Positions 27,000 through 46,910 of a stretch of 64,000 nucleotides of DNA are shown one piece after another. Position 1 is the first letter of the stretch, and each line of letters opens with the position of its first letter. Source of the DNA: Candidatus Deferrimicrobiaceae bacterium (lineage in GTDB: Bacteria; Desulfobacterota; Deferrimicrobia; Deferrimicrobiales; Deferrimicrobiaceae); assembly GCA_036504035.1 (NCBI GenBank), contig DASXVV010000009.1:310001-374000 (forward strand). Reading direction: 5' to 3'. Position numbers and translations under genes: made by a program. The notes under the pieces were generated by a model that was given only the letters and a program-made list of their open reading frames with translations, searched no databases and was not told where the DNA came from.

Positions 27000-27076
<77 letters not shown>

Positions 27077-27145
27077 GCATGAGTTGAAACGGAACCACAG
27101 ATACTAGACGATGGAAACGCGGGTGTCAACATGGAATCGCACCGG

Positions 27146-27958: not shown

Positions 27959-28014
27959 TGGGCATCCTTGCGGGTTGAGATGGTCGTCCGGCAAAACGGG
28001 ACTATCTTACAACA

Positions 28015-31800: not shown

Positions 31801-32537
31801 TTTTGTTCTCCGATGGCCTGGACCCATCCGGTGAGATTCGCCTCTTCCCGCTCCTTTTCCGTCTGCTCGCTTCGAAAACGCTCCTCTTCTTCGGGTGAGA
31901 GCAGCTGCATCCCGGACAGGTCGGCACGAAGCACGTCCAGCTTCCGGCGCTCTTCGGTAGTTCGCTCGTGGGCCTTCACGGAAATCCGGCTGTAGATCTC
32001 GGTGCCGGTGATCTGCTCCAGGATCGGAGCCCGTTCGTCCGGACGCGCCTGGAGAAATGCGGCGAATCCGCCCTGCGCCAGCAGCACGGACCTGGTGAAC
32101 CGGTCGAAGTCCATCCCGGTCACTTCCTCGACCTTGCCGGCTACGGCCGTCAGCTTCGATTCGATGATCAGTCCCGTTGCCGCCTCGGCGATTTCGTGAC
32201 GGGGCGCCTGCAAATTGCCGTCGGCCTGCTTTCGCGCCCGGTGCTGGCTCCAGTGGCAGCGAAAAAGCCCCTTTGCGGTTTCGAACTCGACCTCGGCCGA
32301 ACAGTCGGCCAACTGGCGCGACATGATCTCGTTGCCGCTCTGGTTGACCCGGTTCAGGCGCGGGGTCCGGCCATAAAGGGAAAGGCAGATCGCGTCGAGG
32401 ACGGTGGTCTTCCCGGAACCGGTCGGACCGGTGATGGCGAAGATTCCGCTGGATACGTAGGCGGGATGGGTGAAGTCGATATCCCATTCGCCAGCCAGAG
32501 AATTCAGGTTCCGGAAACGAAGCCGCAGGATTCTCAT
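28863..32537 (-). CDS. sbcC: Exonuclease subunit SbcC
   Basis: 1224 residues, a Rad50-type ATPase. Walker A is [14 protein letters not shown] near residue 40. Long coiled coils flank a zinc hook CPLCG near residue 600. The ABC signature NLSGGESFIVSLALALGLS and a Walker B (VDSLFLDEGFGTLDEDAL) lie near the C-terminus. With SbcD it forms a nuclease that opens hairpins and trims DNA ends. The start overlaps the sbcD stop as ATGA. Confidence 0.95.
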   Translation of the reverse strand: MRILRLRFRNLNSLAGEWDIDFTHPAYVSSGIFAITGPTGSGKTTVLDAICLSLYGRTPRLNRVNQSGNEIMSRQLADCSAEVEFETAKGLFRCHWSQHRARKQADGNLQAPRHEIAEAATGLIIESKLTAVAGKVEEVTGMDFDRFTRSVLLAQGGFAAFLQARPDERAPILEQITGTEIYSRISVKAHERTTEERRKLDVLRADLSGMQLLSPEEEERFRSEQTEKEREEANLTGWVQAIGEQKAWKERIETLETEIAQTRLAWQSFEQKKESGAPQLEQLAWGRRALSLDGDHANLEGVRKQQRVEQDEWAGSGDRLLEVQQACQVAGVALDKAEIGLQEARAEQLRKAEPIRRTRTLDLKLDEASSQLRGGEDEIGRLVGQGDEYRAKIAAGEERIRGTGSSLQAVEVFLSTNGADAVLAETLTGIGQQVKTLKALGEQDSARREQLARQIGVCESAERTKSKAEADLKAALEAVTTAGNRLGSIQAECEKLLGGRDLPLWRADAEAYATRESRLQGLLDAVTRVGDLRNKLESVRARHEALERSRERLSRQEKALTDECGLRETVACQLQDKVILLNRVKTLEAERAQLVDGVPCPLCGAIDHPYAVGNVPCPDEAQQALAQARDEARDAANRLSAVKAEAAGVATGLEQVERERNECLAMLARDEASCTGALLELKLDIDAAARPDSLRAELESCRESLAGCRDIIGQVDAKEAEAREAKSAYDKVKDELARRDTARQTAAIASENAVGERERLERESATLKDDFDRALAETERAVEPYGCRGISPQNADEILEALTARRNSYGEQVGEKETLEKRLSDLGSEVQTLRALLAEAARNLGEKEALRCEQLKRRGELATQRLALFGDRNPDTEEKRLADGIERAGGQREAALQERNHLQAELAGLQERIQTLAATIATRALELAELEGGFKQRMSDAEFADEAAFLEARLSPERLDALAGFADALLREETELRARLEDRAATLKAEREKNLTPKTVDQIGEEYAAVSLKLNELQKALGALGEKLQQHRGQQQLRQVRLQAAEAQKIECARWERLHELIGSADGKKFRNFAQGLTFEMMVGHANRQLGKMSDRYILVRDSLEPLELNVLDNYQAGEIRSTKNLSGGESFIVSLALALGLSNMASRNVRVDSLFLDEGFGTLDEDALETALETLSGLQQDGKLIGIISHVPALKERIGTRILVEAGSAGRSTLSGPGCRRVV

Positions 32538-33766
32538 GGCACGCCCAGCGCGTCGTCTTCATGCAATGCGAGAAGGGTTTCGTGGAACGTGGCGAGCAAC
32601 TCTTCGTGCTGATCCGTCGGCACCTCGTGGACGGCAAGGCAACGAGCGAAGACCTCGTCCGCATCCAGGTCGTGCAACGTTTCTTCCGTGGACGTCCCGC
32701 TCAGCGTCCGCTCGACCAGGCGCATGTTCCGGGTTCGGAGGATCTCGATCTCGGTCCCCTCGACCAGCGCGCGCAACCGCTCCTGCAGGTCGCCCAGCAG
32801 CTCGTCGCCATCGTAGATGACTTCGAGCCAGACCGACGCGGATTCCTTCTTCATCCCGGCGATCCGTTCGGCAATGTCTTTCCAGTCTCCGCGCACCGTA
32901 GCCAGCGACTGGAAGCATGGAACGGGGATTTCCTCGACCGTAACGCCCGCATCTCCGGTTTCCACGACCACGACCACCTTGCGCTGCCCGGCCTCTCCGA
33001 AGCTCATCGGGATGGGTGAGCCCGAATAGCGGTGGTGCTCCGAGCCGACGATCTTCTGGGGCGTGTGCAGATGGCCAAGGGCCAGATAGTCGATGCAAGC
33101 AGGGAAGACCTCATCCCCGACATGACCGAGGTTGCCCACGTAAAGTTCGCGCACGCCGTCCCCGTCGACCGTTCGGCTGCCCGCCGCGAAGAGGTGCCCC
33201 ATCGCGACGATCGGGACATTTCCGCCCAGCTCGACCCGTTTTGCTTCGGCCGCGTCGCACACCTTCCGGTAATGGTCGCGAATGCCGTCGATCAGCTTGC
33301 GCCCCTTGTCTTCGAAGGTTTCACCGGCCTCGGCGGTCCGGATATCGCGGTCGCGCAGATACGGAATGGCGCACACGATCATCTCCGGCTCCCCGGCGGC
33401 ATCCCGCAAAACGATCACTTCGTCCTCGGCGGCATCGGTCATGCAGCCGACCACGTGAACGTTCAGGAAACGAAGCACCTCGCGAGGCGCGTTGAGGAAA
33501 GAGGGGGAATCGTGATTGCCGCCCGTGACCACGACGTGCCGGCAACCGGCGCCGGCCACGCGGACCAGGAAGCGGTAATAGATCTCGAGCGCCCGGTTGC
33601 TCGGCGTCCCGTTGTCGAAGACATCGCCGGAAACGAGAAGCGCCTCGACGCCCTTGTCGGCGATGCAGCCGATCAACCAGTCGAGGAAACGCTCGAATTC
33701 CTCGTAGCGTTTACGTCCGTAGAGCGCCCGGCCGATGTGCCAGTCGGATGTGTGAAGAATAAACAT
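32534..33766 (-). CDS. sbcD: Exonuclease subunit SbcD
   Basis: 410 residues. The calcineurin-like phosphoesterase motifs are in order: HTSDWHIG, SGDVFDNG, TGGNHDSPS, then AMGHLFAAG and ALGHLHTPQ, which supply the two-metal site. The C-terminal capping domain is of normal length. It is the nuclease partner of SbcC, transcribed upstream of it. Confidence 0.95.
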   Translation of the reverse strand: MFILHTSDWHIGRALYGRKRYEEFERFLDWLIGCIADKGVEALLVSGDVFDNGTPSNRALEIYYRFLVRVAGAGCRHVVVTGGNHDSPSFLNAPREVLRFLNVHVVGCMTDAAEDEVIVLRDAAGEPEMIVCAIPYLRDRDIRTAEAGETFEDKGRKLIDGIRDHYRKVCDAAEAKRVELGGNVPIVAMGHLFAAGSRTVDGDGVRELYVGNLGHVGDEVFPACIDYLALGHLHTPQKIVGSEHHRYSGSPIPMSFGEAGQRKVVVVVETGDAGVTVEEIPVPCFQSLATVRGDWKDIAERIAGMKKESASVWLEVIYDGDELLGDLQERLRALVEGTEIEILRTRNMRLVERTLSGTSTEETLHDLDADEVFARCLAVHEVPTDQHEELLATFHETLLALHEDDALGVP

Positions 33767-33794
33767 TTAATTTGGCACCCCACAAGAGAGGAGT

Positions 33795-34232
33795 TTAATC
33801 GGCCCTCTTTGGAATGGCCGGCTCTCGGCAACCTTCCGCCTTCGCTGCGGCGTTTTGCCGTCCATCGAAAGATACAAATCCGAAGTGAGTATTTTCGTCC
33901 TGACGTTTCAGTAACAGAGCAGCCGCCAGATGAACCGCGTCGAATCCCCGCAGAATATGCTTTATGGCGAGTTGCGCGGCGTCCATCTCGTCGAAATCGA
34001 CGACCGCGTAGTGCCCCCAATCAGCGCTCAAGGCATCCTTCAGTCTGCGAAACTCACTGAGAGATAATTCCTTCGCCTTGTGTCTCCTGGCGAATGCGGA
34101 CATCGCCTCGGGAAGGGCCACCTTGCAAGTCGCAACGATCTCTGCTTCCGCTACCCATTCGCGAACCTTGTCGCTTTGCTCCTCGTCGACGTAAAGCTTC
34201 ACCAGGGCACTGGTGTCGAGATAAAGGATCAA
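33795..34232 (-). CDS. PIN-domain toxin (VapC-like)
   Basis: 145 residues. The acidic PIN site is visible: D6 in MILYLDTSALVKLY, E in ALPEAMSAFA, D in RGFDAVHLAAALLL and a final D in FVSFDGRQNAAA. This is a metal-dependent RNase. It overlaps the antitoxin gene by four bases (ATGA) and is downstream of it, as is usual for vapBC pairs. The C-terminal extension after the last acidic residue is short and basic. Confidence 0.9.
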   Translation of the reverse strand: MILYLDTSALVKLYVDEEQSDKVREWVAEAEIVATCKVALPEAMSAFARRHKAKELSLSEFRRLKDALSADWGHYAVVDFDEMDAAQLAIKHILRGFDAVHLAAALLLKRQDENTHFGFVSFDGRQNAAAKAEGCREPAIPKRAD

Positions 34233-34492
34233 CGCCGATCCGAGAGGACGGTCTCGGAGACCGGAATGCCTTTCGCCCGGATTCCGGAGGCGCCGGTCGG
34301 CTTACCGCCACTCCAACGGACTCGACCGTGTTCCATCATCGTCGTAACGACACGCCGCTCCCGCGATATGGGAACAACCAAGGCAATCTCGTGCCCCCGG
34401 TCGGTAATGATGACTTCCTCGCCACCTTTCACCCTGTCGACGTAGCTGCTTAAATGGGCCTTCAATTCCTTGATGCCGACTGCGATCATCAT
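34229..34492 (-). CDS. Phd/YefM-type antitoxin
   Basis: 87 residues. The N-terminal GIKELKAHLSSYVDRVKGGEEVIITDRGHEIALVVP is the Phd/YefM dimer and DNA-binding fold; the C-terminal part is presumably the disordered toxin-binding arm. Either of two adjacent ATGs may start it, after AGGGGG. It is paired with the PIN toxin gene just downstream, and a palindrome lies over its promoter. Confidence 0.88.
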   Translation of the reverse strand: MMIAVGIKELKAHLSSYVDRVKGGEEVIITDRGHEIALVVPISRERRVVTTMMEHGRVRWSGGKPTGASGIRAKGIPVSETVLSDRR

Positions 34493-34510
34493 TGCCCCCT
34501 TACACTTGTA

Positions 34511-34535
34511 GTCACTTCATATTATACATAGTGAC
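34511..34535 (-). promoter_or_regulatory. Toxin-antitoxin operator/promoter
   Basis: GTCACT (34511-34516) and AGTGAC (34530-34535) form an inverted repeat with a 13-base AT-rich centre containing TATAAT on the minus strand (34526-34521). It lies 19 bases upstream of the antitoxin start, the place expected for autorepression by the antitoxin. No good -35 box is seen. The remaining bases to 34704 hold no gene. Confidence 0.5.
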
Positions 34536-34704
34536 CACCTTTGCCGCCATTCTCTTCCGCGATTAAACCGCTTTCGTCCGCTCGACTTAAAATTATTAGT
34601 GCTCTCCATCTGTCTCATTCTTGGCGACACCTCTCACAAGTGATTTCTGTCCGCGGATTTTCCAGGTTGCATGTTGGGGATAGTGGTGGGGCGACGTTTC
34701 CCAA

Positions 34705-34803
34705 ACGCAAACAAGGGGCCACGGAATCACCCGTAACCCCTTGATTTAATGGATGGTAGGCGGAACAGGGCTCGAACCTGCGACATTCGCCGTGTAAAGG
34801 CGA
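34705..34803. repeat. attL: 99-bp direct repeat with tRNA-Val 3' fragment
   Basis: This 99-base segment recurs at 46786-46884 with only two differences (C/A and A/T). It includes the 3' half of tRNA-Val from the anticodon stem to CCA (34754-34803) and the tRNA terminator. After 34803 the sequence diverges from the tRNA, so this is the displaced original 3' end left by integration. Confidence 0.93.
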
Positions 34804-34810
34804 ACTACCC

Positions 34811-34939
34811 ATATTCCCACCAATTCCCCACATTCCACTGCATGCGTAACTAATCGATATATATGCATATATATTTCTCGTTGATTCCCTTAACGGCATT
34901 CGATATCCTAACTTTGTGCTGGGAGTAGTGCTGGGAGTT
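34811..34939. repeat. Candidate integrase arm-type sites, left end
   Basis: Just inside attL are three near-repeats of the form ATTCCCAC / ATTCCCCAC / ATTCCAC (34812-34837). At 34918-34939 there is a 22-base sequence made of TGCTGGGAGTAG followed by TGCTGGGAGT. The latter recurs exactly at 46752-46773, and ATATTCCCAC (34811-34820) recurs at 46683-46692. Repeats near both ends of the island are what integrase or excisionase arm sites look like. Confidence 0.5.
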
Positions 34940-34968
34940 ACACGAGCACCCCTGCGAAGGAGGATACA

Positions 34969-36153
34969 ATGCCGGGCGGCAAGATGAAACTTGAAAGAAC
35001 CAAGACAGACTATCCCGGCGTCTGGCACATCGTGGGGACCGGGCTCGACGGGAAACCCGAACGCATCTATTACATCGGCTACCGTGTCGGCGGGAAATGG
35101 ACCGAGGAAAAGGCAGGGCGGGCCAGACGCGACAGCATGACACCCGCCCGCGCAGCCGCGATCCGGTCCCGAAAAATAGAAGGCAAGGCTCCGACCAACG
35201 AGGGCAAACGTGAAGCAGAGCGCGAAGCACGGACGGCAGAAACCGGGCGATGGACAATTGATCGTCTGTGGACCGAGTGGAAGAAAGTCAACGCTGACAA
35301 GAAAGGCGTCGTGAAGGATAACAGCCGATACAACGTCCATATTAAAGCCCCCTTCGGCGACATCGAACCAAAGGACATCGACCCTCTTTCTGTTCGGCGC
35401 TTGTCTAGCACGTTGGTCAAGGGCAAGCGAGGGAAGAAACCCCTTGCCGTGTCCACCGTGGTATCCGTCCTAACGCTTCTCCGACGCATTGAGTTTTTCG
35501 GCAAGAAAAGCGGGTTGTGCGAAGGGCTCTCGTTCACCATCGAACTGCCGAAGGGATCAAAGCAAAAGACCGAGGACATGACCGAAACGCAGATGTCGCA
35601 ATACGTTAAAACCTGCCGCGAATGGAAAGACTCACAAGCGGGCGCGTTCCAGTTGCTCGCGCTGTTCACCGGCATGAGACGGGCGGAAATACGCGGGTTG
35701 AAGTGGGTTGACGTTGACGACGACCGAGGATTTATCCATATCCGCGACCCCAAAGGCGGGACTGACCAGAAAATACCGATGAACGACCCGACACTCGAAC
35801 TGGTCAAAACGATCCCGCACGTCAAGGGAAGCCCCTACGTCTTCACCGGCGAGATGGGCGGCATGATCGGGTTGAAGCAGGTTGGCGCGTCGGCTAAAGA
35901 CATTCGCGATGCGGCGGGGCTCCCTGCCGACTTCCGCCCCCTTCACGGTCTACGGCATACGTTTGCCAGTCACCTGGCATCGAGTGGTGAAGTGGACCTA
36001 TTCACGCTGCAAAAATTGCTCACGCACAAATCACCCCTCATGACACAGCGTTACGCCCACCTTCGTGATGATTCGATCAAGCGCGCATCGAACGTCATGG
36101 GACGCATTGTGGCGGGCGCTACGGCTCCAGTGGCAGTTGAATCAGGGGAATAA
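34969..36153 (+). CDS. int: Tyrosine recombinase (island integrase)
   Basis: 394 residues, start supported by GAAGGAGGATACA. The catalytic set is visible: Arg in LFTGMRRAEIRGLKW, a Lys in the following beta-hairpin (RDPKGGTDQKIP), HGLRHTFASHLAS for the His-x-x-Arg box, LLTHKSP, and the nucleophile Tyr in TQRYAHL. The N-terminal part contains an arm-binding-like region and a SAM-like core-binding domain. It sits 166 bases inside attL, the usual place for the gene that inserts into tRNA-Val. Confidence 0.95.
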   Translation: MPGGKMKLERTKTDYPGVWHIVGTGLDGKPERIYYIGYRVGGKWTEEKAGRARRDSMTPARAAAIRSRKIEGKAPTNEGKREAEREARTAETGRWTIDRLWTEWKKVNADKKGVVKDNSRYNVHIKAPFGDIEPKDIDPLSVRRLSSTLVKGKRGKKPLAVSTVVSVLTLLRRIEFFGKKSGLCEGLSFTIELPKGSKQKTEDMTETQMSQYVKTCREWKDSQAGAFQLLALFTGMRRAEIRGLKWVDVDDDRGFIHIRDPKGGTDQKIPMNDPTLELVKTIPHVKGSPYVFTGEMGGMIGLKQVGASAKDIRDAAGLPADFRPLHGLRHTFASHLASSGEVDLFTLQKLLTHKSPLMTQRYAHLRDDSIKRASNVMGRIVAGATAPVAVESGE

Positions 36154-36354
36154 ATAAACGTCACTCTCAAGGCGAATTTGTGCGAAACCGGGAGCAGATG
36201 ATAGATTCGGGCTGGACGCCCATAATCAGATCAAGGCAGCAATGGCTGCGAATTAGAAAATCCGCCTTTCGAGGATAGGCCAACGGGCCAACTAGCGGGG
36301 CACCCTCACCCCGTTTCCCCGGATCATCTTGAGGCCGCATGGAGGGTGCGGACA

Positions 36355-37038
36355 ATGCCTAGGCCGATCAAGGACAATCAACTCCCGCGGTTGTCCCGCC
36401 GATATTGGGAAGAAGAAGTTTTCACCCCCGTCTCCAAGCTAATCCGCGACAGCATGCCCGCCGACATTCAGACGCAAGCCCTAAGAATACTTGGCCACCA
36501 TGAAGTAGGGGAGGCGCTACGATATCTTATGCTCGAAAACAGCCACGGATCGACCGACACCCGATATTTCCGAAGATTCGACACGGACAGCGGCGACGGG
36601 ATCAACCTTTTCGGTATGATCCGCGAATGCGTCGAATGGGCCACCGTTCCCGATCCTGCTTTGACGCTAAAACGGGCCAAGGAAACATACTCGACCACCG
36701 ACGATCCGAGAATGCACGACCTTTGTTTCAAGATGGTCTGTTCTGTCGCGAACGGGTTCCTTGCCCCCAAACGCCAAGGCCGCCAAGAAGACTACCGAAG
36801 GAATTTCCTTACGCTTTCGCTCGACTTCAGGTTGAGGCGAAAATTTGGGGTGGCTCCGGGTGTGGCGTCGTTCAAAGATGTTATCGCCTTTTTCCTGTCG
36901 GCAACGTATGGGGACGATACAGACCCGGAAGCTGTCAAGAGGGCTCTTACCAGACTCCGCAAGCGTGCCGTCGTGGACATTTATAAAGATTCCGACGGCA
37001 AGCTTTACAGAAAACTCCGCTTGAATCCGCTCAAATAG
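36355..37038 (+). CDS. Hypothetical protein, island backbone
   Basis: 227 residues from the ATG at 36355, which has GGAGGG eight bases upstream; an earlier start three codons before is less likely. The sequence is charged and helical with many Arg and Asp; no domain was recognised. Segments such as MPRPIKDNQLPRLSRRYWEE and DPEAVKRALTRLRKRAVVDIY suggest nucleic-acid contact at most. It is placed between the integrase and the AlpA-like gene. The 200 bases before it (36154-36354) hold no gene that I can see. Confidence 0.65.
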   Translation: MPRPIKDNQLPRLSRRYWEEEVFTPVSKLIRDSMPADIQTQALRILGHHEVGEALRYLMLENSHGSTDTRYFRRFDTDSGDGINLFGMIRECVEWATVPDPALTLKRAKETYSTTDDPRMHDLCFKMVCSVANGFLAPKRQGRQEDYRRNFLTLSLDFRLRRKFGVAPGVASFKDVIAFFLSATYGDDTDPEAVKRALTRLRKRAVVDIYKDSDGKLYRKLRLNPLK

Positions 37039-37131
37039 CGGGCTGAAACAGGGGACACAAACCCCGGCCCTACGTCCCCGTTTATCCGATAATCCCGTGT
37101 CAAATTACCTCTATACACGGGAGGGCTCAAG

Positions 37132-37353
37132 ATGGACACGAATCAAACGCTGAATCTGCTCACTGCCCCGCAAGCCGCCGAATTTCTCAACCTGTCCCCG
37201 AAAACGCTGTCGAACCTCCGGAGCCAGTCACGCGGGCCGCGTTACATCGTCCTCCGGGGCGCTGGACGCATTCGGGGCGCGATCCGCTACCGGCATTCAG
37301 ACCTGCAAGCATGGATCACCGACGGAATTGTCACCCCCAGCGGCGCTGAATGA
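37132..37353 (+). CDS. AlpA/excisionase-like helix-turn-helix protein
   Basis: 73 residues. LLTAPQAAEFLNLSPKTLSNLRSQSRGPRY is the MerR-like HTH_17 helix-turn-helix, followed by the wing AIRYRHSDLQAWI. Such proteins act as excisionases or AlpA regulators in satellites and islands. It overlaps the next small ORF by four bases (ATGA), starting a coupled set with the primase gene. Confidence 0.88.
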   Translation: MDTNQTLNLLTAPQAAEFLNLSPKTLSNLRSQSRGPRYIVLRGAGRIRGAIRYRHSDLQAWITDGIVTPSGAE

Positions 37354-37490
37354 TGCGGGCGCGAATTAAGGCGGCGCTGCTAGCCCGCGTCACGGACGAA
37401 TGGAACGCCCTACCGCCCGCCACACCGCGAATCCGTTCAACATGTGCCCTGCTGTGGCATGTGCTGGGTCCATGGCTCAAGGGGGAATGA
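37350..37490 (+). CDS. 46-codon small ORF coupled to primase gene
   Basis: The frame opens with ATG ATG at 37350, overlapping the stop of the HTH gene, and closes with TGA at 37488-37490, overlapping the ATG of the primase gene (37487). The protein is MMRARIKAALLARVTDEWN and a further 27 residues ending GPWLKGE. It has a basic amphipathic start and two Trp near the end. The double ATGA overlap strongly suggests real translation; the function is unknown. A translational coupler or small regulator is possible. Confidence 0.6.
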   Translation: MMRARIKAALLARVTDEWNALPPATPRIRSTCALLWHVLGPWLKGE

Positions 37491-39853
37491 TGACGCCCCT
37501 TGCCCGCGTTTTGGATCGTCTCCCCGATGCGAAATGGACCCCGGCGGCTGGACAGTATCGGGCACGATGCCCGGCGCATTGGGACCGTAACCCCTCCCTC
37601 GACGTAAAGGAAGGGAACGACGGGCGCGTATTGCTCTGTTGTCGGGCCGGATGTCCGAATGAATCAATAGTCGAAGCGATGGGGCTAACGATGAAAGACA
37701 TAATGCCCGAATCAGATTGGAACGGAAGCCGCCGCAACGTGTTCCCGGTATCGAGGCCGACAAAAATCAAGCCCGCCCTGGCCCCCGTTGCTCCGCCTTC
37801 CCCGCCAGACGTGGACAAGTATCACAGCGCCTTCCTTTCGACTCATGATGCGTTGGCGTACATGGAGACGCGGGGAATCGACCGCGAGACGTGCGAACGC
37901 TTCCGGATCGGCTACAAGACGACGACGGACGGGACCGGCTGTATCGGCTTCCCCACTTTCAAGGACGGCTCACCCCACCTGATTAAGTGGCGCACCCTTC
38001 CGCCGACGGAAAAGACCTTCCGGCGGGAACCAGCGGGCGCGACATCTACACTGTTCAACGTCGATTGCCTGAAAGATGCGGCGGGGAAAACCGTCTTTGT
38101 CGCGGAAGGTGAAATAGACGCCCTGACACTGTTGCAGGCATCGCCGGAAGCTCGCATCGTCGGAGTCCCGGTTGGCGCTGGAACATTTGAGCCCGAATGG
38201 GCCGCGGCGCTTGCCGATGCCGGAACTGTCTTTATTGCGTACGATGGCGACACCGCGGGGCGGGATGGGGCGATAAAAACCGCAAGGATGATCGGGCTGA
38301 CGCGCTGCCGCATTATCCCGATGCCGGACGGGAAGGACGTGAACGACCTCTACTGCGACGACCCGGAGGGATTCCGGGGGCTGTTCATTAAACTCTGCAA
38401 AGCGGCTCCCCTAGCATCGAACGTAGAAGAAATAGACGCTACCGGGAAAGGCAACACCGACGCCATGAGCGAGGGAGACGATGGAACCTCCCCCCGCGTG
38501 CTTGACCGCCGCGATCCATACGACAACGCGAGAATCTTCCTTGAAGCAGAGCACGCCCACTCCGAAGGGCGGACCCTTAATCATTTCGGCGGCGTGTTCC
38601 GCCAGTGGACCGGGACGCATTGGCCCGAAGCCGACGATGGCGGCATCAGGGCGCGGCTGTGGGCCTTCCTTGCGGAATCCATGGTCGAAGGCGACAAGCA
38701 ATTCAAGCCGACCCGCTCCACAACGGGAGACGTACTTGAGGCGCTGAAATCCCACGCCTACATTCCCCCGGACCTGGCTCCCCCGGCGTGGACGGAAAGG
38801 AAAGTCGAAGACCTTCCGCTCGCGTCCGAAATCGTCGCGTGCAATAACGGTCTGCTGCACATTCCCACGGGAGAACTGTCTCCGCACACGCCCCGCTTTT
38901 TCAACGCAAACGCGGTTCCCTTCGACTTCGACCCCGTGGCAACTTGTCCTCATTGGAAATCGTTTCTTGACGAACTGTGGGATGAAGACATCGACGCACG
39001 GGAGACGCTGCAAGAAATCTTCGGGCTGTTGTTGACGCCGGAGACGCGATACCAAAAACTTTTTTTGATCGTTGGTCCGAAACGAGCCGGTAAAGGTACG
39101 ATCACGCGCATTCTATCCGCTATGCTCGGGCCTGAAAACGTGGCGCATCCTACCCTTTCGAGCATCGGCGGACAATTCGGGCTTGCTCCCCTTGTCGATA
39201 AATCGGCGGCAATCATCGAAGATGCACGGCTGGGCGGGCGGACTGACCAAGCCGCCCTTGCCGAACGATTGCTAACGATTTCCGGAGAGGATGCCCAAAC
39301 GATTGATCGGAAATTCCTACCGGCGCTGACTCGACGGCTTTCAGTGCGCTTCCTGATCGTCTCGAATGAACTTCCCCGCATCGCGGACGTTTCGGGCGCG
39401 CTGACTTCGCGGTTCGTAATCCTCACGCTCAAAGAATCGTTCTTCGACAAGGAAGATACCGGGCTGACAGATCGACTGCTTACGGAACTTTCCGGCATCC
39501 TGAATTGGGCGCTTGCCGGATGGCGACGGCTCAAGGAACGCGGGCGCTTCATCATCCCTGAATCCAGCCGCGACGCGATGCAGGAACTCGAAGAACTTTC
39601 GTCCCCTATCTCGGCATTCATTCGACAACGTTGCGAATTGACTCCTGGCGCAATGGTCAGTTGCGAGCAACTATTCGAAGGATGGGGGAAATGGTGCAAG
39701 GAGCAGGGGCGCGATCACGCGGGAACGGCTCAAACCTTCGGGCGCGACATCCGGACGGCGATCCCCCGGATTGAAGTTCGGAGGCCGCACGGACTGAATC
39801 GGCAGTATAGCGGCATCCGTTTTCGGCCCGACGTAGGGACTGAACCGCAATGA
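37487..39853 (+). CDS. Phage/satellite primase-helicase
   Basis: 788 residues from the ATG pair at 37487/37490. The order is a zinc finger of CHC2 type (CPAHWDRNPSLDV ... LLCCRAGCPNES), a Toprim domain (VFVAEGEIDALTLLQ; FIAYDGDTAGRDGA; MPDGKDVNDL) and a linker. A D5_N-like region follows, then a superfamily 3-like helicase with Walker A GPKRAGKGTITR and the later SNELPRIADVSGALTSRF. This is the P4 alpha type of replication protein that primes and unwinds at its own origin. Iteron-like repeats lie at its stop codon and just after. Confidence 0.92.
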   Translation: MMTPLARVLDRLPDAKWTPAAGQYRARCPAHWDRNPSLDVKEGNDGRVLLCCRAGCPNESIVEAMGLTMKDIMPESDWNGSRRNVFPVSRPTKIKPALAPVAPPSPPDVDKYHSAFLSTHDALAYMETRGIDRETCERFRIGYKTTTDGTGCIGFPTFKDGSPHLIKWRTLPPTEKTFRREPAGATSTLFNVDCLKDAAGKTVFVAEGEIDALTLLQASPEARIVGVPVGAGTFEPEWAAALADAGTVFIAYDGDTAGRDGAIKTARMIGLTRCRIIPMPDGKDVNDLYCDDPEGFRGLFIKLCKAAPLASNVEEIDATGKGNTDAMSEGDDGTSPRVLDRRDPYDNARIFLEAEHAHSEGRTLNHFGGVFRQWTGTHWPEADDGGIRARLWAFLAESMVEGDKQFKPTRSTTGDVLEALKSHAYIPPDLAPPAWTERKVEDLPLASEIVACNNGLLHIPTGELSPHTPRFFNANAVPFDFDPVATCPHWKSFLDELWDEDIDARETLQEIFGLLLTPETRYQKLFLIVGPKRAGKGTITRILSAMLGPENVAHPTLSSIGGQFGLAPLVDKSAAIIEDARLGGRTDQAALAERLLTISGEDAQTIDRKFLPALTRRLSVRFLIVSNELPRIADVSGALTSRFVILTLKESFFDKEDTGLTDRLLTELSGILNWALAGWRRLKERGRFIIPESSRDAMQELEELSSPISAFIRQRCELTPGAMVSCEQLFEGWGKWCKEQGRDHAGTAQTFGRDIRTAIPRIEVRRPHGLNRQYSGIRFRPDVGTEPQ

Positions 39854-39956
39854 ACCGCGGTTTAAGCATTGCAGGATGGTCGGAAGGTAAAGATTTATCT
39901 AGCACATGATTAAAGTATGGGCCGCAATGCTCTGTGTCGCGGTTCATCGCGGTTCA
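39841..39956. repeat. Paired inverted iterons: origin candidate
   Basis: TGAACCGC occurs at 39841-39848 and 39851-39858, and its complement GCGGTTCA at 39939-39946 and 39949-39956. Within each pair the repeats are 10 bases apart, about one helical turn. About 80 bases between the pairs are partly AT-rich (around 39887-39917). The position right after a primase-helicase gene suggests the replication origin of the island; an operator or hairpin for the next gene is the alternative. Confidence 0.5.
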
Positions 39957-39972
39957 AGGGAGGATTACGACG

Positions 39973-40215
39973 ATGGCGAAACGACACCCCCGGCCCGATA
40001 AGGCGATGCAAGCGGCAATCGGTTCCGGATTCTATCAAGCGATACAGGACAAGACCGAAGGGGATAAGGCGCACCGTTGTTGCGGACGATGCCTTGAGGC
40101 ACCAGCAACGGATTCGAGCGTCGGCGAGGTGCGTTCCCTGCGTGAAGCGGCGCTGCGAGCGGACGACCGACAGGCCGACATGGATGGGTTGATGATGGGA
40201 ACAGACGAAATGTAA
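39973..40215 (+). CDS. Small hypothetical protein with CCxxC motif
   Basis: 80 residues from the ATG at 39973, preceded by AAGGGAGGATTACGACG. It contains a possible metal-binding knot HRCCGRCLEAP in the middle and an acidic Met-rich end (MDGLMMGTDEM). The start is basic (MAKRHPRPDKAMQAAIG). It follows the putative origin and ends the rightward backbone genes. No family recognised. Confidence 0.6.
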   Translation: MAKRHPRPDKAMQAAIGSGFYQAIQDKTEGDKAHRCCGRCLEAPATDSSVGEVRSLREAALRADDRQADMDGLMMGTDEM

Positions 40216-40252
40216 GATATGACGTTGAACGAAATAATGAAGGAATGATGGG

Positions 40253-40651
40253 CTAAACCTGACCGCTCTCCCGGATGTCCACCTTTTGAGCGATCTGCAT
40301 CAGGCCCGAAAGGTTCGCGGTCGATTTCCCCGTTTCCAACCGCTCCTTGTCGAATAAGATGCCGAAACCGAGAACTCTATCACGCGGGGCCATTTTTTTT
40401 ATATCCGCGTCCGTCAGGTTGTCGAGTAACATTTTTTGCTTTGCTGCTAGAATTGCCCCGCGATTCGATCTGAAAGACGCCACCGTTCCGAGGTCGATCC
40501 CATTCCTCACCAGTAATTCATGAATGGATTGTTTCGAGGCCCCCATGATCTTTCCTATTTCCGCGTAAGATAATCCTTTCTCACGGTATCCAATGGCAGT
40601 GTCAAGGTCAAGCCCTTTAGGTGAATTATTTGGTTTTTCATATATAATCAT
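40253..40651 (-). CDS. Small helix-turn-helix protein, possibly small-terminase-like
   Basis: 132 residues. A helix-turn-helix is clear in EKGLSYAEIGKIMGASKQSIHELLVRNGI. The C-terminal part (NLTDADIKKMAPRDRVLGFGILFDKERLETGKST) recalls the end of small terminase-like phage proteins. A terS-like gene would fit a satellite that redirects helper packaging, but this rests on a loose resemblance. It converges with the 80-residue gene and lies downstream of the defence operon. Base composition is intermediate between backbone and cargo. Confidence 0.65.
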   Translation of the reverse strand: MIIYEKPNNSPKGLDLDTAIGYREKGLSYAEIGKIMGASKQSIHELLVRNGIDLGTVASFRSNRGAILAAKQKMLLDNLTDADIKKMAPRDRVLGFGILFDKERLETGKSTANLSGLMQIAQKVDIRESGQV

Positions 40652-40931
40652 ACGTTACTCCTGATAGCAATATAATAAGACGACAATTATAACCAAACAC
40701 ATCATCATTATCTTTAATCTAGATTAACAATATTTACCATACTACGTAATATATTTTACCGAGTCAATAAAATATACCAAAAGAAACGCGTACCCATCAC
40801 GATCAATTGATTTTGCAGCAGTCCATCACTTAGCATGCACATTTTGAACAATAATTGTATCATGATAAAAGAAATATTGCGTAATTTGGAAAATAAAACT
40901 ATCGAAATAAACTAGCAAACGAATTCTTTGT
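40652..40931. other. AT-rich spacer after the defence operon
   Basis: About 280 bases, very AT-rich, with no open frame of note. Both flanking genes read leftward, so it should hold the promoter of the HTH gene and possibly the end of the dtc transcript. I see no GC-rich terminator hairpin. Confidence 0.4.
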
Positions 40932-42161
40932 TTAAGATATTTCAGCAACAAGGTGTTTTTCAACAAAATGCCTCATTGCTTGTGCGCTAGTATATGCAGA
41001 GTATTTTTGATAGCTGTCCATTTTTGATGGATCAGCATAATCAACAACAGATTTCATAGAAAATGCTATAGGGTGTGGAGATGCTGCTTCTTCAGCAGCA
41101 GCAAAGATACTATAGGTTTCCATTTCTATCCCTAATATTTCCCTGTGCTGTTCTTTAATACGTTCTGCAGTAACTCCATCAGCAAGCACGGATGCCCCAG
41201 AGGCCAATGGTCCTCGGTAAATATTTAATTCATGATCTGGAGCATCGGATGGCCAATCGCTTTTAATTTTCTGGAATAATCCTTTTTCTAGTACAAATTT
41301 TCTTATAGCGCCTCTCAAATTGGGGTTGAGTGATATTTGATATGGAGCAGATGAAAATGACAATTTCCCATCTTTAATCACCCATTTACCACTTCCCCAA
41401 TCCCAAGATGGATCGGCGATAATAATGTCTCCATATTTTGTTTTCCCCGCAATTCCCGCGGTTATACCCGTCATTCCTATATAAATGGGCTTAAATAGAT
41501 TTATTAATTTGGTCGCGAGTATGGCTGAATACGGAAGACCAGTCCGAGTAGCTGATGCTGCATATACCTTAAATAATTTTTCGTTGTGCTTAATCTCCCC
41601 TTGAAATATAATTGCTGAATCATTAGGTATTACTATTTGCTTCCAATTCCATGGAATCTGTTTAACACTTGACAACTCAGGGTTTTCAAGAGCACAAACA
41701 ATGACTAAAAAAGATTCATTTTTTGTATCTAAGCGTTCACATTGTTTTGATAATAATATTTGCTGAGTCCTATTTCTAAGACGATCTTCCCAAGATTCAG
41801 AGCTTTCATCGTATTGCATAATCATTATTAATCGCTGATCCATTGCTACTTTAGCGATATTATAAATATCTGAATAAGCCGTAATCCCTATAATATTCGC
41901 GGGAATGACATACCCATCTCTTTCAAATATTTCATCCAATAGCTTTATTCCAGCATCGGGTTCTATATCAGTTCCCAATCGATTAGGTACCGCAATGTCT
42001 AACATCATTAAGTCATAGTGTTTTTCTCTTAATTTTGTTTTTGCGGAATGTATATCAAGGACATAACAGATGTCACCTTCATCGACGCCTTCAACAGACG
42101 TAAGAACTCTTATTAAGTTTGCGAGTTTATCATGGTTGTCTTCAATAATAAGTATGTTCAT
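40932..42161 (-). CDS. dtcC: Receiver-nucleoside phosphorylase fusion, DtcC-like Detocs effector
   Basis: 409 residues. Residues 1 to about 125 form a response-regulator receiver (MNILIIEDNHDK; phosphoacceptor Asp in DLMMLDIAVP). The remainder is a PNP/UDP phosphorylase domain with GMTGITAGIAG, GIEMETYSIFAAAEE and the catalytic-Asp region SVVDYADPSK. In place of the usual Lys-Pro of receivers it has MQYDESSESW. In Detocs, this fusion is activated by phosphotransfer from the sensor kinase and cleaves ATP to adenine and ribose triphosphate, stopping phage growth (established, from memory). It starts 5 bases after the dtcB stop. Codon use and GC differ sharply from the chromosome. Confidence 0.9.
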   Translation of the reverse strand: MNILIIEDNHDKLANLIRVLTSVEGVDEGDICYVLDIHSAKTKLREKHYDLMMLDIAVPNRLGTDIEPDAGIKLLDEIFERDGYVIPANIIGITAYSDIYNIAKVAMDQRLIMIMQYDESSESWEDRLRNRTQQILLSKQCERLDTKNESFLVIVCALENPELSSVKQIPWNWKQIVIPNDSAIIFQGEIKHNEKLFKVYAASATRTGLPYSAILATKLINLFKPIYIGMTGITAGIAGKTKYGDIIIADPSWDWGSGKWVIKDGKLSFSSAPYQISLNPNLRGAIRKFVLEKGLFQKIKSDWPSDAPDHELNIYRGPLASGASVLADGVTAERIKEQHREILGIEMETYSIFAAAEEAASPHPIAFSMKSVVDYADPSKMDSYQKYSAYTSAQAMRHFVEKHLVAEIS

Positions 42162-42166
42162 ATACT

Positions 42167-42625
42167 TTACTCCGCACTTAATGCAGTTTTAATTAATTCA
42201 TTCAACTGGTCTTTCCATATATCAATCGTTGGGTTATAGTATACAGTTCCTATATAGCAATCTTTATGAGCGGCCATTAATTCGCGATCTAGTTCCTCTA
42301 AATTCAAGGCATCCTTACCTTCACCAAATCTATCATAGGCGGTAACAACTATCACTGGAGACCTGATATCCCTGCGATCCATTTGTCTTAATATTTCACG
42401 GCCTGCATATGCTTGAGGTCTTCCACCATCTTCGTTAAAACTTTGGTCATATGTTGGTAGTGTCATATCAAGCAATACAATACTTACTTCAGAATTTATT
42501 ATTTTCCTTAATCCAGACTGGAGGGACATTGCAAGTGTGATCTCGCAACCAGGAAACGACTCCTTAAGAGAATTGCATATTTGTAAACGTTTATTTTCAT
42601 CATCTTCAACTAGTAAAATCTTCAA
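42167..42625 (-). CDS. dtcB: Stand-alone receiver domain, DtcB-like
   Basis: 152 residues from a TTG at 42625, six bases after GGAGGTG; an ATG at 42643 lacks a ribosome site. It is a single receiver: acidic pocket LLVEDDENKR, phosphoacceptor Asp in VSIVLLDMTLP, Thr in VIVVTAYDRF. Like the DtcC receiver it lacks the usual Lys-Pro and reads VYYNPTIDIW instead. No output domain follows. In Detocs, DtcB is a phosphate sink that prevents accidental activation of DtcC. It overlaps the sensor gene and precedes dtcC. Confidence 0.85.
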   Translation of the reverse strand: MKILLVEDDENKRLQICNSLKESFPGCEITLAMSLQSGLRKIINSEVSIVLLDMTLPTYDQSFNEDGGRPQAYAGREILRQMDRRDIRSPVIVVTAYDRFGEGKDALNLEELDRELMAAHKDCYIGTVYYNPTIDIWKDQLNELIKTALSAE

Positions 42626-45600
42626 TTGGCACCTCCACTCCATAAATCTGAAATTTTACAAAAAAACGATCATTTTCTCGTATCCCGAAATCATATTCAA
42701 GTTTCTTTTGATTACTTCTAAAATCATGTGTCAGTATTTTTCCAATTTTATGAAATCCAGTTCCGCCTTCAGACGATATGGATTTGCCGTAATTACCTTC
42801 TCGCATCACTTCTTTAATTGCGTTAATTTTAACATTGGTCTCTCTAATATTTATTGTTTTACCAATTTCATTTTCAATCTCAATATTTATAACCCCTTTA
42901 TCGTAAAAAACAGTAACAAATGCTTCGGGCCGATCTAGAAGCCCAGAATGGCGAACAATATTTTCAAATATAATAAATAATATATCGACGAAGCTTGTAA
43001 GCAACTTCCCCTTGAAATGGATTTTTGGCATATCCTCATTTGTAGCTATGTGAACGTTAAAATTAGTTGAATACATCTTTACGCTTTCTTCACCTATATT
43101 AATCGCATCTTCGATAAGGAATGGATCATTCGCAGATATCTTAGAAAGTCTAAACCATTCTTTTATACGGTCCATTACAAGTTGCATGTCTGTCATGGTT
43201 GTTCTAATAGTATTTCGTAAATCACCTATATTTATTACATTATCGTGGCTATCAATTTTAGTCATTAATGAATCAAATAAATTGTTTACTTGTGATTTAC
43301 CATTTGTATCAATAACTTTTCTAATCTCAGACAAGTTGGTCATCAATAAAGAGTTGAAAAAATTAAATATGATTTCCAAAAAATCATCAAAAGCCGTATC
43401 CGATGTGATTAAAGTTGCCAATTGCATTGTATCGGTCTTATATAGTGAGAAATCAAACAATCCTTTTTCTTCAGGTGACTTTTTTACTTGTATCCAATTA
43501 TTGTTAATGTCAGATATTAATTTATCAAATCCCTTTGAGTACTCCTCAAAAGCAGTATCAAATTCAGATAAAAGCTGATCCCCCTCGATATGGAGCTTGT
43601 TAATCCAATATTCATTCCGCCGATATTTGCCTGTATTATTATCAATCCTCGTGATAAGATTTGCTGATTCTAAATGTCTTCTTAATTGGCCGGATAAAGT
43701 CCCATGACGAATCCTAACACTTAGGTACCCATCTAAACCGTATTCAGTGCTAGAAATAAACGCATCACGCAATTCTATAATCATATTCTCAAATATCTCA
43801 TATGCTTCATTCGTAGGGGTAGGGAATGATATCCCTGAATTAGACAATAAATCGGGTAATATAATTTTACTTTCCTCTGCAATCGAATTATTATCCGATT
43901 TAATGCCGTGCGCTAAAAACGATATATATCGTATGTATATTTCTTTCATTGATTTTGTTACATGTTTCCTTATACCTTCAATATCTACATATATTTTACT
44001 TTGCTCTACTTCTCGCATACGTTTTTGAATTGTAAGTCTCTTTAGTATGTTTTTAATTTCATCCTCATGTAATTCATATCCGTCTACTTTATTTTCAATA
44101 AGGAACTTACACACAGCTAAACGTTCTTCGGCAACATCCGTAGAGCCGGAAAATACAATGGAGTTATCCATTATTGGCTCAATGCACAAATATTTTAAGA
44201 AATAATATATCTTCTCTCGATCAAATTTATCTACTATTTTGTTTATTTCAGATGGACGTGAGATGCCATTACTCAACAGGAAGTCTTCGTAGGCAAATGC
44301 TCGTAACGAATCATATTTATTGTCTATGTATTTTGAATATAAATCATAAAATATAGAAAGCGATATGTCATTTTTCATTCTTCCTCTAATGTCTTTAGTA
44401 ACCATATCAGCAATGGTGGTGATTGGAATAATATGCCTAACGCTTGCATCGTTAATATATTTAGCAGTTATAAACCGTATACATTCCTCTAACTCTCCAT
44501 TCAGAATATATCTAGCGATGGTTATAACTATTGCTTTGTTATTATAAAACCGATATTTTGATAACTCCAACTTTGATAATACTTCATCGATATTACTCCA
44601 TTTACTATTTATTCTCATTATTTCTGCTTCAAGCAAACATTTTTCCTCATCTCTTAATCCAATTGCAATATCTTCGCTATAAACCCCCTCATTCAAGCAC
44701 TCGACACAACCAAGAGCCGAATTAATACCATAATTGTCTTTATACATATCAATCATGTTAGCAATATCCGATTTACCGCCTAACGATAACATCCTAAACG
44801 GGTTCAATAATGGATGAGTAAAGGCATAATTAATTAATGGAAAGGTAATGTACCGATCTCCATTGATATAATCTGACGACGTTTCTATTCCTAAATAATT
44901 ACTAAGACCGAAAGCCCATTGGAAATGGAAATTATTAATTGCTATTTTTGACAAATAACTTACATCATCTTCAAATGTATTAGAGTTATTTATAACAGAG
45001 GCCATTCTTATCGATATTTCTTGAAGTAAGCACTTCTTAATATTATCGACATTAATATTTTCAATTGAAAATATTTTTGATAACAACTCAATATTTTCAA
45101 ATAAATCAGGATGCAACTCAACATTATCTTTCAGCAGGTCAGTTGATAATTCTATATTTCCTTTATAGAATTGGTTTAAGGCATCAACGTATTTGTCATA
45201 TTTGTGTTCGTCGCGGATAGGTATCTTAAAGATACTTTGCAGGAGACGTAACATCCGGCTGTCATTAATATCTGCCGCAAATCGTAGCACCATATTTTTT
45301 ATGCAATTTAACTCTTCCAAATATCCTTTATGAATTAATACCTGTATTACCCTAACAAACCCCTCGTAATAATCTATAATTGACCCGGCGCATTCATTTC
45401 TCAAAATGTCGCTTAAGTCTTCTTTGTCATAATCTATATCTGGGTCTATATGGTATTTGAGGTATACATACGTGTCCTTAGGCATTGACATTTTAGATGT
45501 ATGATTCTTAAATATAGAAGAAAATCTATTAGTAGTTATAGTTGATTCGTTCCTAATGCTTACATAATATGCTATGTATTGTGCCGTTCCATTTTTTATC

Positions 45601-46109
45601 GCCGTATCTTTTATAAGGCGAAAGTATTTTTTTTGTGATTCTAGCCCGCCCGTAATATCTAGTAAGTTTAATTTTGTCTTTATAAGCCAAATTGATTGTC
45701 CATAGGTCTTTTCAATTCCATTCAATATTTCTAAACATTTCTCGTAATCGCTATTTAAAAAGGATTGTTGGTACTCTAACGATAGGGCGAGAAAACCTTT
45801 AATCTCACTTACATATATATTTAAGTAAACGCATGCCCACCGTAACTCGCTTCCAAAGTTTATCCTATACAATGGAGCTATCCCTTTAAGTTCTTTTAGA
45901 GAGCGGGGGAAATCCTTATGAAATACTAAAGGTCTTAATATTGGATTTGATCGAACCCAAGAAATCAATTCTGGGTAAGTACTTTGCCCCAAAATAATTC
46001 TAGCATCAGATAAAACAAGTATCGGTTTTTTTAAGCCGCGTAATTTATTCTTATATTTTAACAATAATGAGTTTGGCGCTTTATTTTTATGTTTTTTATC
46101 TTTCCGCAT
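42606..46109 (-). CDS. dtcA: Large helical sensor histidine kinase, DtcA-like
   Basis: 1167 residues with no membrane segment. The first 900 or so are alpha-helical repeats of TPR-like character, expected to sense infection inside the cell. The kinase part is at the C-terminus: candidate phospho-His H955 (DSHDNVINIGDLRNTI), N-box FENIVRHSG near residue 1050, and glycine box EGGTGFHKIGKIL near residue 1115. The H-box is not a classical HE[IL]RNP type. It is the first gene of the dtcA-dtcB-dtcC run, matching the known Detocs order, and is very AT-rich. The exact trigger cannot be read from sequence. Confidence 0.85.
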   Translation of the reverse strand: MRKDKKHKNKAPNSLLLKYKNKLRGLKKPILVLSDARIILGQSTYPELISWVRSNPILRPLVFHKDFPRSLKELKGIAPLYRINFGSELRWACVYLNIYVSEIKGFLALSLEYQQSFLNSDYEKCLEILNGIEKTYGQSIWLIKTKLNLLDITGGLESQKKYFRLIKDTAIKNGTAQYIAYYVSIRNESTITTNRFSSIFKNHTSKMSMPKDTYVYLKYHIDPDIDYDKEDLSDILRNECAGSIIDYYEGFVRVIQVLIHKGYLEELNCIKNMVLRFAADINDSRMLRLLQSIFKIPIRDEHKYDKYVDALNQFYKGNIELSTDLLKDNVELHPDLFENIELLSKIFSIENINVDNIKKCLLQEISIRMASVINNSNTFEDDVSYLSKIAINNFHFQWAFGLSNYLGIETSSDYINGDRYITFPLINYAFTHPLLNPFRMLSLGGKSDIANMIDMYKDNYGINSALGCVECLNEGVYSEDIAIGLRDEEKCLLEAEIMRINSKWSNIDEVLSKLELSKYRFYNNKAIVITIARYILNGELEECIRFITAKYINDASVRHIIPITTIADMVTKDIRGRMKNDISLSIFYDLYSKYIDNKYDSLRAFAYEDFLLSNGISRPSEINKIVDKFDREKIYYFLKYLCIEPIMDNSIVFSGSTDVAEERLAVCKFLIENKVDGYELHEDEIKNILKRLTIQKRMREVEQSKIYVDIEGIRKHVTKSMKEIYIRYISFLAHGIKSDNNSIAEESKIILPDLLSNSGISFPTPTNEAYEIFENMIIELRDAFISSTEYGLDGYLSVRIRHGTLSGQLRRHLESANLITRIDNNTGKYRRNEYWINKLHIEGDQLLSEFDTAFEEYSKGFDKLISDINNNWIQVKKSPEEKGLFDFSLYKTDTMQLATLITSDTAFDDFLEIIFNFFNSLLMTNLSEIRKVIDTNGKSQVNNLFDSLMTKIDSHDNVINIGDLRNTIRTTMTDMQLVMDRIKEWFRLSKISANDPFLIEDAINIGEESVKMYSTNFNVHIATNEDMPKIHFKGKLLTSFVDILFIIFENIVRHSGLLDRPEAFVTVFYDKGVINIEIENEIGKTINIRETNVKINAIKEVMREGNYGKSISSEGGTGFHKIGKILTHDFRSNQKKLEYDFGIRENDRFFVKFQIYGVEVPIEDFTS

Positions 46110-46785
46110 TTATCAACCACCATTCATTATTTATTAAACCGTAAATAACAAAATAATAGCTACACAATTATGTAGGTCGTATCCTGAAATTTTTAGTAAA
46201 AAAATAAAACGCCTTCGGGTCGATTCCAACATGAAGGGAATACTGGGGAATATATTTCTTGGCCGAGTCGGAGTCCTCATCCCTTTAGTTACCGCATATA
46301 AAGCGTTATATTGTTTTTAAGGGCATCATACGCCATTTATCGAAAATAAAAAGATGTCAATCAACTACAGCATTGATATCCACGCCCGAATGCCTGCGAT
46401 TATTTAACATGCCGACTATGCGCATTGGCGAATGCTTATATGAATTTGAATAGGTCACCCGACTGCTTGCCTCATGTTACGGGAACGCGATGGGAGCATT
46501 CCCCGTTTCCAGACTTGTTAACAGGTCGACCGTGGACCGGATGGAATGAGTTGCGCCGGAGGGAAACCCTTTTTCTTGAAGTCGATAAAATACAGGGCGA
46601 ACTTACGATACCCCGGCACCGATTCTGACCCCCCCCCCGACGCCCTCCCAACGGGCTAAATTTATTTTCGCTGATGTCGCGAATATTCCCACACGTGAGA
46701 GTTTGACGGGGTTAATTTCGATGAGGGGTTTGCTTGCATGTCCTTGCTGCATGCTGGGAGTAGTGCTGGGAGTGAGATATTATAG
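46110..46785. other. Gene-free stretch at the right end of the island
   Basis: About 675 bases with no convincing gene. The first part is AT-rich and should contain the promoter of the leftward defence operon. The second part contains the repeats ATATTCCCAC (46683-46692) and the 22-base TGCTGGGAGT tandem (46752-46773) shared with the left end. One 67-codon frame on the plus strand (46425-46628) lacks a ribosome site and coding character. Confidence 0.5.
46752..46773. repeat. Right-end copy of the 22-base tandem repeat
   Basis: This copy is identical and in the same orientation as 34918-34939; it consists of TGCTGGGAGTAG plus TGCTGGGAGT. It ends 12 bases before attR and is a candidate arm site for the integrase or its directionality factor. 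Confidence 0.5.
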
Positions 46786-46884
46786 ACGCAAACAAGGGGC
46801 CACGGAATAACCCGTAACCCCTTGTTTTAATGGATGGTAGGCGGAACAGGGCTCGAACCTGCGACATTCGCCGTGTAAAGGCGA
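46786..46884. repeat. attR: 99-bp direct repeat
   Basis: 97 of 99 bases match 34705-34803. It supplies the 3' half of the intact tRNA-Val and the tRNA terminator. The identity ends at the anticodon stem, the usual crossover place for tRNA-directed tyrosine recombinases. Confidence 0.93.
46792..46825 (-). terminator. tRNA-Val terminator carried by the att repeat
   Basis: On the minus strand ACAAGGGG (46825-46818) pairs with CCCCTTGT (46799-46792). Further inner pairs extend it, ending in ACGG with CCGT, and a short T-rich end follows. Its counterpart in attL keeps most of the stem. Confidence 0.65.
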
Positions 46885-46910
46885 CGCTCTGCCAACTGAG
46901 CTATCCGCCC
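46835..46910 (-). tRNA. tRNA-Val (UAC), integration target
   Basis: 76 bases with encoded CCA. The acceptor GGGCGGA pairs with TCCGCCT, the D-arm is TAGCTCAGTTGGCAGAGC, the anticodon stem TCGCC/GGCGA holds TTTACAC (anticodon TAC), and the T-loop is TTCGAGC. It is complete although its 3' half belongs to the inserted island. Confidence 0.95.

Follow-up and report, generated by a model that had tools for sequence, protein, structure and literature searches.

Does the 3' end of a primase gene in Candidatus Deferrimicrobiaceae bacterium (assembly GCA_036504035.1, contig DASXVV010000009.1) hold a replication origin, and is its design peculiar to one mobile element or shared by relatives of the primase? 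The question is raised by two direct and two inverted copies of an octamer, which face each other at positions 39841-39956 of the window, i.e., of the whole stretch of 64,000 nucleotides that was analyzed. Sequence comparison and structure modeling indicate that this segment very probably serves a 12-kb tRNA-Val integrative element as its replication origin, and that this origin is of the SaPI/PICI/P4 kind. We base this reading on the recurrence of the layout, on known sites, on the predicted fold of the C-terminal domain of the adjacent protein, and on the SaPI5-like character of that protein, here called Rep.

The integrative element and its primase-helicase

The site is placed inside a 12-kb integrative element because an exact 59-bp direct repeat of the tRNA-Val 3' half is found at both ends. 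The main features of the element are:

34745-34803, no strand: attL, remnant of the tRNA-Val 3' half, identical to 46826-46884
34969-36153, plus strand: tyrosine integrase (PF00589, E 9e-27; phrog_1)
37132-37353, plus strand: small AlpA/Vis-like HTH protein, excisionase or regulator (HTH_17, 7e-11; phrog_66, 1.6e-7)
37400-39853, plus strand: Rep, primase-helicase of 817 aa (Toprim_2, D5_N, DUF5906; TIGR01613)
39596-39838, plus strand: codons of the C-terminal winged helix, putative iteron-binding domain (model residues 25-105 on 1ka8)
46826-46884, no strand: attR, the 59-bp repeat, within intact tRNA-Val (46835-46910, minus strand)

ARAGORN finds a tRNA-Val at each end, and the Rfam tRNA model matches at the right end only. 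The G001 contig aligns to both att sides (empty-site comparison). The label of phrog_66 is 'excisionase and transcriptional regulator', and the integrase, AlpA-like HTH protein, Rep and putative ori, which come in this order, are the components expected of a PICI (integrase, AlpA- or Stl-type regulator, pri-rep and ori); small ORFs and low-GC cargo follow downstream of the repeats. Since no packaging or capsid gene was recognized among the nine scanned proteins of the element, we call it PICI/P4-like rather than a PICI.

The cargo (40932-46109, minus strand, about 33% GC) matches A, B and C of PDC-M60, a PADLOC candidate defence system, and includes a response-regulator/nucleoside-phosphorylase fusion. 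Beside the element, tRNA-Asp and tRNA-Val, which are adjacent in the related genomes L110, L113 and L114, stand 19.8 kb apart in the window (27000-46910), so that the region of 27.1-34.7 kb, which contains sbcCD and VapBC-like genes (names given on reading the ORFs), may have been inserted or rearranged at an earlier time.

Rep consists of a Toprim primase, a D5_N/SF3 helicase and a C-terminal winged helix, and scores 165 bits with TIGR01613 (cut-off 108.7). The nearest solved structure by sequence is 7ola, titled Primase-Helicase in SaPI5 (E 6.8e-28 with a profile of 25 homologues), which also comes first by fold of the full Rep model, itself of modest quality (pLDDT 73, pTM 0.54). The matches to D5_N, TIGR01613 and 7ola identify the SF3/D5-type helicase that goes with origins of the SaPI/PICI type. 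The C-terminal 109 residues are modeled as a winged helix (pLDDT 82), the best folds being RFX1 (1dp7, Z 10.6) and RFX5 (Z 10.4); the P4 origin-binding domain, 1ka8, follows with Z 9.7 and rmsd 2.1 over 78 residues. The likeness of the P4 domain and the RFX1 fold is implied in PMC10516667.

Facing repeats at the end of the rep gene

The site itself is made of five parts:

39841-39848, plus strand: iteron L1, TGAACCGC, within the last codons of Rep
39851-39858, plus strand: iteron L2, TGAACCGC, with the TGA inside it being the Rep stop codon
39859-39938, no strand: core, putative melting region, 80 bp, 44% GC
39939-39946, minus strand: iteron R2, inverted copy of TGAACCGC
39949-39956, minus strand: iteron R1, inverted copy of TGAACCGC

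The preliminary description was exact as to the four copies, the 10-bp period of both the direct and the inverted pair, and the 80-bp gap. Its partly AT-rich core is borne out by a GC content of 44% versus 62% in the flanks, and its placement at the stop of a replication gene by the TGA of the second copy, which ends a P4-family primase-helicase. It overlooked an inner inverted repeat, AGCATTGC at 39865-39872 and GCAATGCT at 39924-39931. The sequence was said to be unfamiliar; this holds for the letters but not for the architecture, which is the published SaPI/PICI layout, with a site 3' of the initiator gene and opposed iterons flanking an AT-rich region. Together the arms make up an inverted repeat of 19 nt with 95% complementarity, and the segment folded as a DNA strand has z = -5.7.

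Facing exact 6-mer pairs appeared in 0 of 100 dinucleotide shuffles of this region, and facing 8-mer pairs with one mismatch in 0 of 40; an earlier run at the latter setting gave 1 of 20, with 0 of 20 matching the observed quality. The window has 8 copies of TGAACCGC versus 3.35 expected. With up to two mismatches, TGAACCGCNNTGAACCGC occurs at three places in the host genome, two of which are at the site studied here, and of 395 genomes searched in the phylum, 1 has the facing pattern in its exact letters, namely that of the window's host, so the letters of the paired motif are practically private to the host.

Inverted ends 116 bp apart might also be expected of an unrelated repeat, such as a MITE-like insertion, a terminator or an RNA element. 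This reading is extremely improbable: nowhere else in the host genome do both pairs of the motif occur, Rfam has no match at the site, and the sequence has no T run. In addition, many genomes and plasmids have such repeats at the corresponding place downstream of a primase gene.

The same layout behind other primase genes

Relatives of Rep were gathered from genomes and plasmids, and duplicates were removed. Loci with a match that stops short of the C-terminus (L009, L026, L033, L068, L069, L070) or with a contig end (L064) were skipped; one later match list contributed only 28 loci, L079-L106, and seven loci from a scan of viral contigs, which match the primase part only, were left out. The detector required two direct and two inverted 8-mers with at most one mismatch, a spacing of 7-13 and a gap of 15-250. 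The region scanned began 100 nt ahead of the stop codon and ended 700 nt past it.

The layout was detected in 39 of 60 primase regions (that of the window and those of 59 loci). The controls gave 15 positives in 2400 dinucleotide shuffles and 19 among 468 real 3' ends taken from other frames. The shuffle count was repeated to give the former figure because earlier counts had been uneven (8/640, then 0/600); the latter control is conservative, since its 19 positives include the primase ends of L009 and apparently L015. Among the first 32 regions, exact 6-mers were seen in 16 and exact 7-mers in 12, compared to 1 and 0 of 3200 shuffles. The 8-mer, one-mismatch setting detected nothing in 21 of the 60 primase ends; several of these have degenerate or uneven repeats by eye (L055, L059, L016), which were not counted, and others have none.

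Spacings of the left and right pairs are equal in most origins and range from 8 to 12 bp. The numbers of facing copies are unequal in 18 of the 39. Carriers of the layout include planctomycete genomes (L002, L003), actinobacterial and Salinibacter plasmids (L041, L042, L044), and a locus adjoining a terminase (L120). GC content is lower in the core than in the flanks in 32 of 39 origins.

In many cores, the place of AT-rich DNA is taken by long stretches (12-38 nt) in which purines and pyrimidines alternate as CG/CA (L007, L010, L041, L044, L082-L086, L101 and others). In 26 of 39 cores such stretches exceed those of shuffles in length (p<0.05); the core of the window has p 0.42, and for this reason they play no part in our account of its origin. 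Could they be Z-DNA-prone melting aids? Beyond the inner pair, outer direct arrays of two to five iterons are seen in L042, L083, L084, L091, L095, L096, L103 and L106, mostly with 10-12-bp spacing (9 in some) and about 42-76 bp off on the left side; these are possibly copy-control repeats. By eye, the right iterons of L002, L003, L052 and L093 apparently fall within the first part of an open frame that follows the core, and so would also be coding; these frames have a common '..PxWL/WWL..' motif.

A symmetric inner box

Inward of the iterons, both halves of the site contain a second element:

39866-39872, plus strand: inner box GCATTGC of the left half-origin, matching SCATTGY at 7/7 positions, 7 nt inward of the inner iteron
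39924-39930, minus strand: inner box GCATTGC of the right half-origin, matching SCATTGY at 7/7 positions, 8 nt inward of the inner iteron

The clade of the window's Rep (the window, L002, L003, L005, L052 and L079-L106) has 23 detected origins, and when each half-origin is followed inward from the inner iteron, SCATTGY recurs at offset 7-8. With the window excluded, the exact box occurs in 12 of 44 halves (shuffle mean 0.07, maximum 1) and a 6/7 match in 23 of 44 (shuffle mean 1.5, maximum 7), although SCATTGY was chosen on the same sequences, and the counts are inflated by relatedness, with helicase identity up to 0.93. At other offsets it was seen in one half at 12-19 and in none at 20-27.

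The 16 more distant origins have SCATTGY in 1 of 32 halves. Their inner flanks are nevertheless mirror-like across the core, with a mean best 8-mer match of 5.62 versus 4.60 +- 0.21 in shuffles, and this likeness extends further in (offset 14-30; 5.56 versus 4.60), which it does not do in the window's clade (4.04 versus 4.27). A symmetric inner element therefore seems to be general, and its letters clade-specific.

Two trivial accounts of the box were rejected. As a start codon, the right box fares poorly: of ten with ATG, two open frames of at least 50 codons and one is preceded by an SD-like sequence. Nor is the box a common sequence, as SCATTGY occurs 27 times in the window versus 28.8 expected, and its position alone is special. 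We found no account of the inner box in the accessible literature, which includes few subscription papers and is weak evidence of absence; the box, common to the Rep clade despite differing iterons, appears to be undescribed.

Known origins and competing readings

The closest published counterpart is the SaPI/PICI ori, which, like the site described here, lies immediately 3' of pri-rep and has two opposed iteron sets around an AT-rich region (PMC6092414, PMC7581432); SaPI/PICI Rep likewise has a SaPI5-type helicase. The site differs in its iteron letters and in the clade-specific inner box, and the element in that no packaging gene was seen in it. SaPI primases are of the AEP type (PMC7581432), whereas Rep has a Toprim primase.

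P4 alpha resembles Rep in that its Toprim primase is fused to a helicase and to a winged helix, which in alpha is the origin-binding domain (1ka8; PMC4234260). The annotated P4 crr, directly 3' of the alpha gene, contains facing type 1 repeats and was positive in the detector at the 8-mer, one-mismatch setting (three mismatches in all; 0/30 shuffles). P4 is unlike our element in that it has two cis sites, its units contain more repeats, and its core is shorter.

The existence of crr, separate from the annotated rep_origin of P4, lends itself to another reading of the window, namely that the repeats are an operator or copy-control site (rep autoregulation, incompatibility, or a crr-like second cis site), and the real origin is elsewhere in the element. 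The outer arrays of several relatives, about 42-76 bp from the inner pair, could be such control repeats. We consider this very unlikely for the site studied here: in PICIs, a plasmid is replicated from the very site that follows rep (PMC6092414), the two-sided layout with a low-GC core suits an origin better, and the repeats are at the end of the rep gene, not at its start.

The annotated origin of phage Sfi21 (a 302-bp non-coding region) is also an origin with facing pairs right behind the primase gene, in this case a perfect TTAGTTAC pair; unlike the window, Sfi21 has a separate second polymerase/primase gene annotated, an 8-bp period and other letters. Two lytic phages with such a primase, from a tblastn list, had no site at either the 8-mer or the exact 6-mer setting.

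In the Sulfolobus plasmids pRN1 and pRN2, the origin follows the gene of a primase-helicase whose C-terminus is a winged helix, as in the window, but the primase is archaeo-eukaryotic, and the origin was published as a stem-loop without iterons (PMC4234260). The 8-mer setting missed the pRN1 origin, while at exact 6-mers it shows TGTCCA pairs with a 9-bp period in both arms (0/30 shuffles); pRN2 is weak in the detector, with 3 of 30 shuffles positive too. By our reading, the 'stem-loop' behind ORF904 (L075) of pRN1 can be taken as facing TGTCCA pairs.

These plasmids bring up the question of whether the window, too, has a stem-loop (cruciform) origin, as proposed for pRN1 and phage BIP-1, with the hairpin shape and not the iteron letters being recognized. 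Its strand does fold well (z -5.7), the inner flanks are mirror-like in all origins, and the pRN1 stem-loop is required by experiment, with iterons denied by the authors (PMC4234260). Stem-loop and iterons describe the window itself equally well. Across the family, we favour repeats read by a protein because facing copies are unequal in number in 18 of 39 origins and the inner box keeps its letters from origin to origin, a constraint that a hairpin alone would not impose; together with the TGTCCA pairs in the pRN1 arms, this makes recognition of shape highly improbable.

The preliminary description also had the origin recognized by the adjacent primase-helicase. This putative role of Rep gains from the layout in 39 of 60 regions, from the annotated and tested sites, and from the predicted P4-origin-binding/RFX fold of its C-terminus. 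In SCCmec, the C-terminal domain of Cch2 binds a direct-repeat site behind its own gene (PMC7581432).

Iteron letters and the protein

The letters of the iterons vary between elements, and the layout stays constant. L005, whose protein comes nearest in the alignment (45% over full length), has TGTCACGC in the same layout, yet L006, which is more distant (42% over the matched C-terminal part), has TGAACCGC exactly; L003 has GGTCCGCG. Conservation of the repeats in close relatives had been set as the test on which the origin proposal should stand or fall. The layout is conserved, whereas the letters differ in L005 and agree in L006, and letter conservation is too simple a test.

Similarity of iterons follows protein similarity (rho -0.36, p 0.0004) and correlates alike with C-terminal distance (rho -0.36) and with helicase distance (rho -0.38; n=26); the partial p values are 0.10 (C-terminus) and 0.04 (helicase). 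C-terminal columns were no better than helicase columns for covariation with iterons (p 0.24), and no specific covariation of the C-terminal domain with the iterons was demonstrated in these tests. Common history of protein and site explains the correlation as well as recognition does.

A model of initiation

By analogy with SaPI Rep, P4 alpha and SCCmec Cch2, from which binding, facing helicases, melting and priming are all inferred, the origin might work as follows. After excision of the element, the C-terminal winged helices of Rep would bind two iterons per side, about one helical turn apart, and it is proposed that therefore one helicase hexamer would be loaded per half-origin, the two hexamers standing face to face. 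Another contact may be made at the symmetric box that lies 7-8 bp farther inward. The core that separates the boxes, low in GC, would then melt, the Toprim domain would prime, and host polymerases would extend bidirectionally. The iteron letters would be the private key of the element, and the inner box would be common to the Rep clade.

A bolder version, which we put forward tentatively and with less than even confidence, has two locks per half: the variable iterons as the private key, and the constant SCATTGY, recognized by some part of the initiator that is itself conserved, e.g., helicase hairpins or the primase. This two-tier facing-pair design might be common to P4, PICIs, phages, plasmids and the archaeal pRN plasmids, in which case the published 'stem-loop' origins would be facing iteron pairs.

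A probable general origin format

Judged from sequence, the facing-pair layout looks like a general origin format of P4-family primase-helicases. The examples from plasmids, from the neighbourhood of a terminase (L120) and from planctomycetes suggest that it belongs to the primase-helicase and not to PICIs; in the accessible literature, which takes in few subscription papers and is weak evidence of absence, we found no account of the layout outside PICIs, SaPIs, SCC and P4-type elements. An origin of this format can be found mechanically. Letters that are swapped within a constant layout make initiator specificity, the compatibility of co-resident origins and the question of the pRN1 stem-loop directly testable, and the constant inner box is a concrete new target.
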